Shown piece after piece: positions 8,676 to 11,811 of a DNA stretch of 64,000 nt; positions within the stretch are counted from its first letter, which is position 1; every line of letters begins with the position of its first letter. This stretch comes from Streptomyces sp. NBC_01304 (GTDB taxonomy: Bacteria; Actinomycetota; Actinomycetes; Streptomycetales; Streptomycetaceae). The notes below the pieces were generated by a model, which had not been told where the DNA came from, ran no database searches, and was given only the letters and a program-made list of their open reading frames with translations. The stretch spans positions 4,898,001 through 4,962,000 of the forward strand of contig NZ_CP109055.1 of assembly GCF_035975855.1 (NCBI RefSeq), written 5' to 3'. The position numbers and the translations under genes were made by a program.

Positions 8676-9534
8676 GCCTGATTGCGTGGCTGGTGGGGGT
8701 GGGTGGTTGCGCGGACCTCCGTCTGTTTCGTCGCTGCCTGCGGGTGCTCTGCGGGCTGGCTTTCCCCAACTGATGTCAGTACGGGGCCACAGGGGAGAAG
8801 TCCCGACAACGGAAGAGGCGGGCGAAGAGCAAAGACAAAGACCGCAGCGAGAGAAGGGGATGGAGGGGGCGGGCGGAGGCTCGGAGGGCGAGCGAGGGAA
8901 GGGGGTGGGCGAGGGCTCGGAGGGCGGGCGGGAGCTCGGAGGGCGGTCTGGGGGCCTAGTGGGGGGAAACGGGCAACAGAACCAGCACAAAAGGGACGCT
9001 CTTGCGCCCCATTCCCCCCACTAGGCCTCCAGACCCCGCCCTCCGCCGCCTCCTGGGGGGAAAGGGGCTCACCTAACGGGCAAACCGGGCACCCCGACGC
9101 CACTTTCCGCACGGCTAGCCCCAGCCTCCCGATCCCGGGCTCGCGCCTCCCCCTCCCGAGCTCGTACCCCCAGCCCAGACCAGCGCTTCCCCCGCCGGGC
9201 CCGCACTTCCCAGCCCCAGACCAGCGCTTCCCCCGCCGAGCCCGCACTTCCCAGCCCCGGGCCCGCACCTCCCCCACCGGGCCCGCAACTCCCCCCCGTC
9301 GGGCCCGCACTTCCCCTCCAACCCCCTCCCCCTCCCCCCTCCGTCCCTTTCTCTCGCTGCGGTCTTTGTCTTTCGGCTTTGCCCTTCCCCCACCTCTTCC
9401 ATCACCGGCAGCCACCTCCCTGGGCCCCGTACTGACAGCAATTGGGGAAAGCCAGCCACCGAACACCCGCAGCCAGCAACGAGACAGACGGAGGTCCGCG
9501 CAACCACCCACCCCCACCAGCCACGCAATCAGGC
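8676..9534. repeat. 860-bp imperfect inverted repeat (giant palindromic element)
   Basis: The left arm starts GCCTGATTGCGTGGCTGG at 8676 and the right arm is its reverse complement ending at 9534. The first 50 or so bases of each arm match exactly. The arms then continue with substitutions and small indels for about 190 bp (CAGTACGGGG and CAAAGACAAAGACCGCAGCG appear on both). The centre holds a smaller hairpin (8952-8970 with 9012-9030). The left half is purine-rich and the right half pyrimidine-rich. No gene is visible inside. It could be a palindromic miniature element or an inverted duplication. Confidence 0.85.
9174..9314. repeat. 41-bp tandem repeat, two good copies plus degenerate tail
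   Basis: Units start at 9174 and 9215 (CCCAGACCAGCGCTTCCCCC and so on), differing at few positions. They are followed to about 9314 by shorter degenerate copies of CGGGCCCGCACTTCCC. It lies within the pyrimidine-rich half of the giant inverted repeat. Confidence 0.75.
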
Positions 9535-9677: not shown

Positions 9678-9832
9678 ATGGTCAGCTCGTCGCATGTTGG
9701 TGATCGCGTCCCAGGGCAAGAAGGACGAGGCCAAGCGCCGCAGCGATGCTCGCCCAGCTCACCGAGTCGGGTCTCGTTGACGCCGGTGCACAGAAGATCT
9801 GGAGGGAACTGGTAACGGGATCCCCCTCCTGA
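9678..9832 (+). pseudogene. 5' remnants of a Streptomyces multi-copy (Rpn-like) gene, interrupted by the IscB element
   Basis: ATG 9678 has a good site (GAGAGGAGG) and encodes MVSSSH, the usual start of a large Streptomyces family of about 290-residue proteins related to Rpn/PD-(D/E)XK transposase-like nucleases. The reading then breaks. A second frame gives LVIASQGKKDEAKRRS, resembling that family's conserved EAQGKKDPDK block. A third frame gives AMLAQLTESGLVDAGAQKIW, resembling the region before its C-terminal third. So at least two internal deletions have occurred. The sequence stops at the element edge near 9814, and the C-terminal part of the same gene reappears at 11560. Family assignment is from memory of its recurrent motifs. 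Confidence 0.65.
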
Positions 9833-10130
9833 ACGAGGGGGCTTTCAGCCTCCTGGCTGAGGGCCGCCGTTTCCAGCACCAGCCAACAAGTACGTGGGAG
9901 GTGAACCAAGTTGGCTACGTTTCGCGTACGACAGAAGACCGACCGGGCTGTGCTTCACCAGCAGCTCGCTCTCGAATTCGAGTCAGCAGACACCCCTCGG
10001 ATCGGGGACGAAACGGGGCTCGAAGACCGCAGTGCGGTACCGGGCGCGGAACATGTGCGAGGTGAGATCCCTGCCGCTTCACCCGGCGGCGGGGGCGTCA
10101 CCCCCGAGCCCTGCGTGGCCGGGGAGGAGG
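9798..10130 (+). ncRNA. Candidate omega RNA (HEARO-type guide RNA) of the IscB element
   Basis: IscB nucleases use an RNA encoded just upstream, with a guide at its 5' end. Here the 300 bp before iscB fold strongly. AACGG (9814-9818) pairs with CCGTT (9867-9871) and encloses two adjacent hairpins: CCCCCTC/GAGGGGG (9822-9828 with 9835-9841) and a 9-bp stem 9842-9850 with 9855-9863. Next come AGCCAAC/GTTGGCT (9881-9887 with 9910-9916), TACG/CGTA (9916-9928), CCCC/GGGG (9992-10006), ACCGC/GCGGT (10026-10038) and a last GGGGG/CCCCC hairpin (10091-10105). The 16 nt before the fold, TCTGGAGGGAACTGGT (9798-9813), would be the guide and are host-gene codons. The boundaries are inferred. Confidence 0.75.
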
Positions 10131-10150
10131 CACGTGAGTGCCACCCTTAC

Positions 10151-11452
10151 GTGTTCGTACTCGACAAGAACGGGCACCCGTTGCAGCCCACCAGCCCGGC
10201 ACGGGCCAGGAAGCTCCTCAACAAGGGACGGGCTGTGGTTCACCGGCACACCCCGTTCGTGATCCGCCTCAAGGACCGCACGCTCGAACTGTCGGAGGTG
10301 GACGGGGTGGAATTGGGCATCGACCCCGGCTCGAAGCACACCGGGATCGCCGTGTTCACCCACGTGGCCGGGGAGCGCCGGGGCCGGTACGCGATCCAGC
10401 TCGACCACCGGGGCACGACGATCCGCAAGAAGCTGGAGCAGCGGGCCGCCTACCGCCGGGGACGCCGGACTCGCAACCTGCGTTACCGGGCGCCTCGCTT
10501 CTCCAACCGGACGAGGCCGAAGGGTTGGCTCGCTCCGTCTCTGCGTCACCGGGTGGTGACCACCCTGTCGTGGACCTCGCGCCTGGCCCGCTGGGCCCCG
10601 GTGCGGGCGGCACAGGTGGAGCGAGTCGCGTTCGACACCCACGCCCTCAGCGCCGACGGGCCGTTGGAAGGGGCCGAGTACCAGCACGGCACCCTGCACG
10701 GCATGGAGGTGCGCGAGTACCTGCTGGCCAAGTTCGGCCGGGCCTGCATCTACTGCGGCGTCACCGGCGTGCCCCTCAACATCGACCACGTCCACCCGAG
10801 GTCGAAGGGCGGCTCGGACCGAGTCTCCAACCTCGTCCTGGCCTGCATCCCCTGCAACGAGACCAAGGCGAACCGGCCGGTAGAAGAGTTCGCGCCGCAT
10901 CGGGCCGCCGACATCCTCAAGCGGGCCAAAGCCCCGCTGCGGGACGCCGCGGCTGTCAACTCCACCAGGTGGGTCCTGTGGCAGGCCCTCGGCGACATGC
11001 TGCCCACCCACACCGCCTCGGGCGGGCGAACCAAATGGAACCGCACCCGCACCCACCTGCCCAAGACCCACACCCTGGATGCCCTCGCCGTGGGCACGCT
11101 CGACACCATCACCGAGATCGTCACCACCGTGCTGGTCGTCGGTTGCACTGGGCGCGGCACTCATACCCGCACCCGGCCGAACCAGCACGGCTTCCCCCGG
11201 CTGCGGATGCCGAGGCAGAAGCAGTTCTTCGGCTACCAGACCGGCGACCTTGCCCGAGCCGTCGTCCCCATCGGGAAGAAGGCCGGGACCTACACCGGCC
11301 GGATCGCCGTCCGCTCCACCGGCAGGTTCAATATCACCACCGCCCACGGCACCGTCCAAGGCATCCGGCACACACGCTTCCGCCTGCTCCAACGCGCAGA
11401 CGGCTACGCCTACGCCACCCAACCCGAAGGCCTCAGCACAGACCACGGCTAG
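10151..11452 (+). CDS. iscB: IscB RNA-guided endonuclease (IS200/IS605-associated, Cas9 ancestor family)
   Basis: A 433-residue IscB. Domains in order: N-terminal PLMP-like segment (FVLDKNGHPLQPTSPARARK, residues 2-21); RuvC-I IDPGSKHTGIAVF with Asp58; arginine-rich bridge helix with RRGRR at 102-106 and RNLRYRAPRFSNR; RuvC-II VERVAFDTHAL with Glu157; HNH domain with zinc pairs CIYC (199-202) and CIPC (232-235) and catalytic IDHVHPRSKGGSD (His213); RuvC-III KTHTLDALAVG with His307 and Asp310; and a C-terminal target-interaction region. All catalytic residues are intact. The start is uncertain: GTG 10151 is in frame, but the ribosome-binding site GGGGAGGAGG (10120-10129) points to GTG 10134, which is one base out of frame. 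No TnpA transposase is present, so the element is non-autonomous. Confidence 0.93.
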   Translation: MFVLDKNGHPLQPTSPARARKLLNKGRAVVHRHTPFVIRLKDRTLELSEVDGVELGIDPGSKHTGIAVFTHVAGERRGRYAIQLDHRGTTIRKKLEQRAAYRRGRRTRNLRYRAPRFSNRTRPKGWLAPSLRHRVVTTLSWTSRLARWAPVRAAQVERVAFDTHALSADGPLEGAEYQHGTLHGMEVREYLLAKFGRACIYCGVTGVPLNIDHVHPRSKGGSDRVSNLVLACIPCNETKANRPVEEFAPHRAADILKRAKAPLRDAAAVNSTRWVLWQALGDMLPTHTASGGRTKWNRTRTHLPKTHTLDALAVGTLDTITEIVTTVLVVGCTGRGTHTRTRPNQHGFPRLRMPRQKQFFGYQTGDLARAVVPIGKKAGTYTGRIAVRSTGRFNITTAHGTVQGIRHTRFRLLQRADGYAYATQPEGLSTDHG

Positions 11453-11559
11453 CAGACATCGGCCCGTCCAGAGGGCGAATCGCCTTTCCCTGCCCCGCCA
11501 TGAGGGAGCTTCGTTTCCTCTCCCAGTTAAGGCAGGGAGTATCCACAAAGGACATCCGA
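11453..11559. mobile_element. Right-end region of the IscB element
   Basis: About 100 bp between the iscB stop and the resumed host gene. It contains GGCG-AAT-CGCC (11474-11484) and an imperfect stem GGGAG/CTCCC around 11504-11524, the type of subterminal hairpin that marks IS200/IS605 ends. The exact right boundary cannot be fixed without an empty-site homologue. The left end should lie near 9814. Confidence 0.5.
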
Positions 11560-11811
11560 ATGACGTCCGTGAACTACTTCTTCCGGCACCCGATGGCCTT
11601 GAAGGTGCGCGAGGAAGGCCGCGAGGAAGGCCGGGCACAGGCCCGAGCCGAGATGATCCTGGAGATCCTCGATTGGCGGGACATCCCCGTACCGCCCTCC
11701 GTCCGCGACCGCGTCCTGGCCTGCACGGACCTCGACCAGCTCCACGCCTGGGCCAAGCGAGCCGTCCAGGTCGACAACGCGGAAGACCTGTTCGTCCCCG
11801 GCGCCGCCTGA
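11560..11811 (+). pseudogene. 3' remnant of the interrupted multi-copy (Rpn-like) gene
   Basis: An 83-codon open frame reading MTSVNYFFRHPMALKVREEG, then EGRAQARAEMILEILDWRDI and a C-terminus with CTDLDQLHAWAKRAVQVDNA and EDLF. The EG/REEGRAxA repeat followed by ILxxLDxRxIxVPxxxRxRxxxCTDLDxLxxW is the C-terminal signature I associate with the same Streptomyces family whose first residues appear at 9678. It could be translated from ATG 11560 but lacks the nuclease part, so it is best read as the downstream half of the gene split by the IscB element. Confidence 0.65.

Follow-up and report, generated by a model that had tools for sequence, protein, structure and literature searches.

IscB, of the family ancestral to Cas9, was reportedly described together with its HEARO/omega RNA as an OMEGA system by Altae-Tran in 2021. 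In TnpB, the omega RNA stands at the 3′ end of the message. According to the corresponding reports, the guide RNA of TnpB is made from the nuclease's own mRNA (PMC10278001), and the omega RNA of IsrB holds a Shine-Dalgarno (SD) sequence in its last hairpin with a suggested role in expression (PMC9581776), which therefore provides a precedent for translation control by such an RNA. In this study, we examined an IscB element in a 64,000-nucleotide stretch of Streptomyces sp. NBC_01304 (NZ_CP109055.1, positions 4,898,001 to 4,962,000; hereafter the window, whose numbering is used throughout, all features lying on the + strand). IscB systems with HEARO/omega RNA (PMC9755519, PMC13180657) and the window element are alike in protein architecture, RNA fold, 5′ guide and a motif 3′ of the target. 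The difference lies in the start of the protein: members of this actinobacterial group apparently begin IscB at an SD sequence and an NTG codon inside helix P4 of the omega RNA. Both the IsrB RNA (PMC9581776) and that of the window place a terminal hairpin just before the conserved N terminus; whereas the IsrB coding region follows the RNA, the window element has its SD sequence and start codon about 240 nt farther in the 5′ direction, with most of its RNA apparently translated. With TnpB the window element would share, by our proposal, a guide RNA derived from the nuclease's own mRNA, yet here the RNA is at the 5′ end of the message and contains the start codon, unlike the 3′-terminal RNA of TnpB. 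In the open-licence literature, as far as its text was accessible, neither a statement of an IscB starting inside its omega RNA nor a precedent for a translated scaffold was found; an earlier printed account of the former is possible.

The omega RNA scaffold occupies 9812-10142 and consists of a HEARO homologue followed by a 3′-terminal hairpin with a GNRA loop. Rfam HEARO (RF02033) matched 9812-10071 over the complete model (1-211) with 59.6 bits and an E-value of 8.8e-11 in a searched stretch of 3.7 kb, and this is the single HEARO match at E ≤ 0.001 in its own genome; among actinobacterial RNAs, scoring against Rfam covered the window and a Streptomyces canus plasmid locus (L084, 67.6 bits). 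The initial annotation had described a structured RNA before IscB, as expected of an omega RNA, and had named a match to the HEARO model and covariation across homologous loci as its tests. Both were found. Across 36 actinobacterial sequences and 67 pairs (9812-10069), 95.6% of cells were paired, 46 pairs varied on both sides and the covariation score was 0.445, compared with 79.9%, 29.7 and 0.162 in shuffles and at most 45.6%, 25 and 0.102 in slid structures. The alignment holds 36 of the 66 loci extracted, omitting 22 clade-B Streptomyces loci (about 50-60% identity, with a different 5′ part), three clade-C loci, L011, L014, L015 and two repeats, and the counts therefore apply to clade A and its near kin only. 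Judged by this covariation, the omega RNA fold is confirmed as real. Its helix P1 (9814-9871), in which AACGG at 9814-9818 pairs with CCGTT at 9867-9871 around two hairpins, is the closing helix named in the initial annotation; four of its five pairs vary on both sides, with 92.8% of cells paired. The fold energy of the single sequence was uninformative (z = -1.43; 14 of 200 shuffles equally stable). The terminal hairpin, GGCAC-GTGA-GTGCC at 10129-10142, is separated from the conserved IscB N terminus by 8 nt. Within the 45 nt preceding that N terminus, 33 of 40 loci (at least 60% identity) have a GNRA-looped stem of no fewer than 4 bp, against a background of 1.4%; in these 33 the loop is mostly GTGA, 22 end exactly 8 nt before the N terminus, and 19 different stems occur. 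As this hairpin lies beyond the Rfam model, the omega RNA reaches to about 10142.

Helix P4 (9881-9916) is formed by AGCCAAC (9881-9887) and GTTGGCT (9910-9916) and is paired in 99.2% of cells in the 36 sequences. Its loop contains the SD sequence GGAGGTGA (9897-9904), recognised by its energy of pairing with the anti-SD, and its 3′ strand contains the proposed start codon TTG (9911-9913). The IscB frame of the window is open back to an in-frame TGA at 9902-9904, and TTG 9911 is the first possible start after it, nine bases past GGAGG. We compared 64 distinct actinobacterial loci, having dropped L013, L030, L059, L061, L063 and L064 for want of an IscB N terminus, the partial loci L016, L077, L079 and L083, and the repeats L001, L004, L017, L078, L068 (=L006) and L069 (=L009). 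With motif anchors placed by sequence pattern rather than by covariance model, the P4 site was recognised in 61 of them and not found in L011, L015 and L045. The P4 codon is ATG in 36, TTG in 20 and GTG in two (NTG in 58/61), the others being ACG in two and TCG in one, L010, where an in-frame TTG precedes it by one codon. The P4 pair that involves the first base of the P4 codon is AU in 21 sequences, UA in 13, CG in one and UG in one, and TTG and ATG are thereby exchanged through paired changes. The anti-SD energy before the P4 start has a median of -12.3 kcal/mol (61 loci; range -13.9 to 1.9), compared with -3.9 ahead of conserved codon 1 of IscB and -2.6 for random sites; energies past the best 1% of random sites are found at 90% of P4 sites and in no case ahead of conserved codon 1.

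The position of this codon relative to IscB points in the same direction. In 59 of 61 loci it shares the IscB frame, across 18 different lengths between 76 and 116 codons, and the RNA does not end before the IscB frame as a non-coding RNA of the RF02033 type would. On a tree of 59 proteins (L014 and L029 being too short for inclusion), the stretch from the P4 codon to IscB changed in length at least 31 times and in frame twice, so that, by the tree counts, the frame is kept through insertions and deletions in the manner of an overlapping gene. In the 35 rows that include the 5′ part of the RNA, that part changes length 24 times and frame 15 times, compared with 14 times and never in the 3′ part. 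Stops between the P4 codon and IscB occur in the IscB frame in 5 of 61 loci and in the other two frames in 43 and 57. From these signals, the IscB of the window probably starts at TTG 9911, giving 513 residues, and not at 10151, giving 433. With its start codon inside P4, about 70% of the scaffold would therefore also be coding sequence, and on the most economical reading ribosomes must traverse the scaffold to reach IscB.

For comparison we used 17 IscB loci on plasmids of Pseudomonadota, Cyanobacteriota, Bacillota, Deinococcota and Thermodesulfobacteriota, whose proteins are separated from 58 actinobacterial proteins by a 100/100 branch. All 17 have a HEARO match (59-167 bits), above the cut-off in 15. 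Their start codon is near the conserved N terminus and follows the RNA, with SD strengths that vary from -3 to -17 kcal/mol, in contrast to the window element with its apparent start in P4 and most of its RNA apparently coding. In the 300 nt before IscB they have 2-6 in-frame stops, and where the motif was found its distance to IscB falls in all three frames. The P4 loop, viewed in five controls aligned to the model, is short in four and longer, without an SD sequence, in L091. The window RNA is a diverged HEARO homologue directly upstream of IscB that appears mostly coding, unlike those of the controls read. That L087, from Methylobacter, might share the P4-start arrangement was considered and rejected, its sister L085 having another frame distance and four in-frame stops in 300 nt. 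A different comparison is offered by clade C (L032, L033, L035), a lineage of single origin (100/100) in which two frameshifts and one stop interrupt the frame across the omega RNA. These loci retain the P4 SD sequence and, as judged by eye, also possess, past the end of the RNA, an ATG accompanied by an SD-like sequence; clade C would accordingly represent a natural control, in which the frame appears to have been lost where another start was at hand. Apart from this, a locus on a Paraburkholderia plasmid (L096) has a match to a group II intron domain at 218-368, upstream of its HEARO RNA.

The conserved part of the protein, 433 residues plus TAG at 10151-11452, matches NCBIfam guided_IscB (NF040563) over residues 1-315 with 410.8 bits (cut-off 175), as well as Pfam RRXRR and HNH, and can be aligned to solved IscB chains in the PDB. 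The initial annotation had reported an intact 433-residue IscB with catalytic residues, bridge helix and zinc pairs, and this holds at every named position: D58, E157, H213, H307 and D310, RRGRR at 102-106, and CxxC pairs at 199 and 232. By these features the protein is an intact member of the IscB family. The same annotation had also called it a distinct variant. The argument for this, drawn from GC-richness alone, needs correction: IscB matches at E ≤ 1e-40 occur in 42 of 392 genomes of the genus, its own included, and the element belongs to a common group; it is distinct instead in a start that apparently lies inside the omega RNA. Its own genome (10.99 Mb) has a single full-length IscB, two further matches spanning residues 188-247 alone. 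Among phage records no close IscB was found (E ≤ 1e-20; 14 records, the best at 44.9%). Another Streptomyces genome (G257) contains four IscB copies without stops (L005 = L017, L046, L047 and L048) in differing flanks, which points to movement.

The ends of the element were established from homologues of the host gene that lack it. At the left end, relatives are alike from GTAACGGG (9812) on and unlike before it; the whole element, 9812-11559, measures 1748 bp and lies directly 5′ of ATGA (11560-11563), which is part of the host gene. The 5′ fragment of that gene, LAQLTESGLVDAGAQKIWREL (9749-9811), is continuous in homologues with the 3′ fragment at 11560-11811, of 83 codons plus stop. The joined host protein has a match at E ≤ 1e-12 in 119 of 246 genomes of the genus; of the best 25 of these loci, which we fetched, 24 span the junction and the remaining one is the window itself. 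All 24 are uninterrupted there, with CTG or a similar codon followed directly by ATG, and ATGA in 22 and ATGG in 2. Since these homologues read through the junction, the element is 9812-11559 and a target duplication is absent; integrating at a fixed short motif without duplicating the target is a trait of the IS200/IS605 type. The host gene has weak Rpn similarity, its homologue in locus L103 scoring 29.1 bits against TIGR01784 (cut-off 52.1). Guides of IscB are 16 nt long, and the predicted guide segment is therefore placed at 9796-9811, in the host flank just 5′ of the scaffold. Compared with the 24 empty sites, this 16-bp flank is identical at 15 positions in 5 loci, 14 in 13, 13 in 5 and 12 in 1, so that the predicted guide would fit uninterrupted alleles in other strains with one to four mismatches; ATGA, which follows the guide-like flank in the empty sites, is the predicted target-adjacent motif. 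Guide-like sites in its own genome are its own left junction (two mismatches) and three sites at three mismatches.

How the protein starts could be read differently. Under one alternative this is an ordinary IscB element, whose non-coding omega RNA forms the 5′ untranslated region, whose start is GTG 10151 and whose upstream frame is open by the chance of GC-rich sequence. The related S. canus plasmid IscB (NZ_CP108710, L084; 75.4%) is indeed annotated in RefSeq from the GTG at its conserved N terminus, although it has an in-frame ATG with an SD sequence in P4, and PMC13180657 describes a curation in which the start is moved downstream where there is an N-terminal insertion of at least 10 residues and a downstream start exists. 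Conserved codon 1 is, by alignment, a valine codon: in the 64 loci it is GTG in 35, as in the window, but GTC in 21, GTT in 5 and GTA in 3, together 29 loci, and in 16 the interval between codons -20 and +2 relative to it contains no start codon. Adding to this an anti-SD energy before codon 1 near background, frame keeping, with 2 changes of frame against 31 of length, which is unexpected by chance, and the stops in the other two frames, we hold an ordinary element to be very unlikely. A compromise in which both starts are in use, the long form from the P4 codon and the short form from GTG 10151 where present, accords with 47 of 64 loci having some start codon in the interval from -5 to +2 codons around the conserved N terminus; the near-background energy there and the 16 loci without a nearby start make it unlikely as well.

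A start in P4 implies an N-terminal extension of 80 codons (9911-10150), whose coding sequence is the omega RNA together with its 3′ hairpin. That this leader is a functional protein domain, and not a by-product of translating the RNA, may be suggested by its presence in relatives from Streptomyces, Nocardiopsis, Actinomadura and Streptosporangium, but its similarity can follow from the RNA, and it gave neither a Pfam or NCBIfam match at E ≤ 0.01 nor a PDB match under E 1. Further, in 34 loci the ratio of change at third codon positions to the mean of the first two is 1.02 in the RNA-coding part and 1.05 in the linker, compared with 2.78 in IscB. The third-position excess expected from purifying selection on the peptide is thus absent from the RNA-coding part; the codon positions vary alike and it is therefore the frame and the RNA that are kept, not the peptide. 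We accordingly consider a functional leader quite improbable. The element could also be a decaying, inactive remnant, as it sits in an already shortened host gene, is present in single copy and lacks a tnpA of its own. Against this, the catalytic and zinc residues are intact, as are the RNA fold, the frame and the two ends, and it has relatives in other strains, four of them in one genome, which leaves this explanation with a low probability. Several observations nevertheless weigh against translation from P4 within a guide RNA. The HEARO score is below the Rfam gathering cut-off of 83, for which reason a default Rfam scan of the window was empty and HEARO was seen in the sensitive scan alone, and the minimum-energy fold of the window sequence by itself is unlike the covarying fold. 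As the peptide is not selected, translation has to be argued from frame and start alone, and with a GTG present at 10151 initiation is also possible there. Some controls, such as L087, likewise have a long open upstream frame, and the RefSeq start of L087 is a GTG 204 nt upstream. In-frame stops are present in the three loci of clade C and in L034 and L062, of which L062 is broken elsewhere too and L034 is without NTG (ACG). Finally, no uninterrupted target within two mismatches of the guide was found in its own genome.

Taken together, we regard it as very likely that the omega RNA and the IscB message are one RNA with its start codon in P4, and that the element would cut alleles without an insertion. 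With equal conviction, as a component of this explanation, 9812-11559 is taken to be an IS200/605-like IscB element without its own transposase. On this model, which builds on sequence evidence for the ends, the empty sites, the covarying fold, the kept frame and the start signal, a single transcript would begin in the host flank and comprise guide, scaffold and IscB; its 5′ end would therefore carry a guide copied from the host. A ribosome would bind at the SD sequence in the loop of P4, unwind this helix, initiate at the NTG within its stem and continue across the remaining scaffold into IscB, yielding a protein of 513 residues with an 80-residue leader. Each copy of the RNA could be either translated, with the scaffold melted, or folded and bound by IscB, with the start codon shut. 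Were guide and message alternative fates of one RNA in this way, IscB could limit its own synthesis. A strict form of this switch, in which ribosome entry and guide folding exclude each other, such that IscB binding to the guide shuts IscB translation and translation melts the guide, appears to us about as probable as its opposite. The IscB-RNA complex would then cut alleles lacking the insertion, recognised by guide match and ATGA, and repair from the filled copy would restore the element, favouring its retention and spread.

If true, the guide scaffold of this RNA-guided nuclease would encode the beginning of the very enzyme it serves, with autoregulation built into the fold, and the system would offer a concrete model for how an element may limit a nuclease able to cut its host. 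It would also have practical application, as it changes how protein and RNA of this actinobacterial branch get cut out and tested: constructs in which IscB begins at the annotated GTG and the guide RNA is supplied separately may miss the native start and its control. The clade C loci with their broken frame could serve as natural controls, and the empty sites supply guide, target and motif.

At its other end, the element has a subterminal hairpin (CTCCC...GGGAG, 11520-11539), for which several relatives show, by eye, the same layout with differing stems; unlike the left-end hairpin, which covaries as omega RNA helix 2, it was judged by eye and carries no covariation score. In 26 right-end junctions, the window included, the element is followed by ATGA in 23, GTGA in 2 and ATGGTGA in 1, figures that favour the motif because the junctions were chosen by eye and unrecognisable right ends (such as those of L047, L022, L084, L021 and L026) omitted. 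An SD-like AAAGGA lies on the right end of the window element at 11547-11552, as read from the sequence, shortly before the host ATG. The anti-SD energy at right ends has a median of -5.9, compared with -3.2 at background ATGA sites, and is weak or absent in several relatives. Several right ends carry an SD-like AAGGA, mostly absent in Nocardiopsis and kin, and the element might thus substitute its own ribosome site for that of the recipient gene. Separately, the ATGA or GTGA 3′ of the element opens a frame of at least 200 codons in 16 of 26 loci, three frames that run off the locus being counted as long, compared with 19% of 410 background ATGA sites.

A Y1 transposase gene (TnpA) was not found in the element, and the genome contains a single PF01797 match, at a distance of about 4.5 Mb (C1:362573); this distant gene may serve the element in trans. 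A second empty site came to light on the S. canus plasmid, which has the occupied site of locus L029 uninterrupted, identical at 15 of 16 guide positions and followed by ATGA. Adjoining the IscB element, a long inverted repeat occupies 8676-9534, with arms of 79, 86 and 60 nt around a GC-rich core. One of its arms has 35 matches in its own genome, itself included, many of them in plus/minus pairs, which makes it a member of a dispersed, apparently non-coding repeat family.

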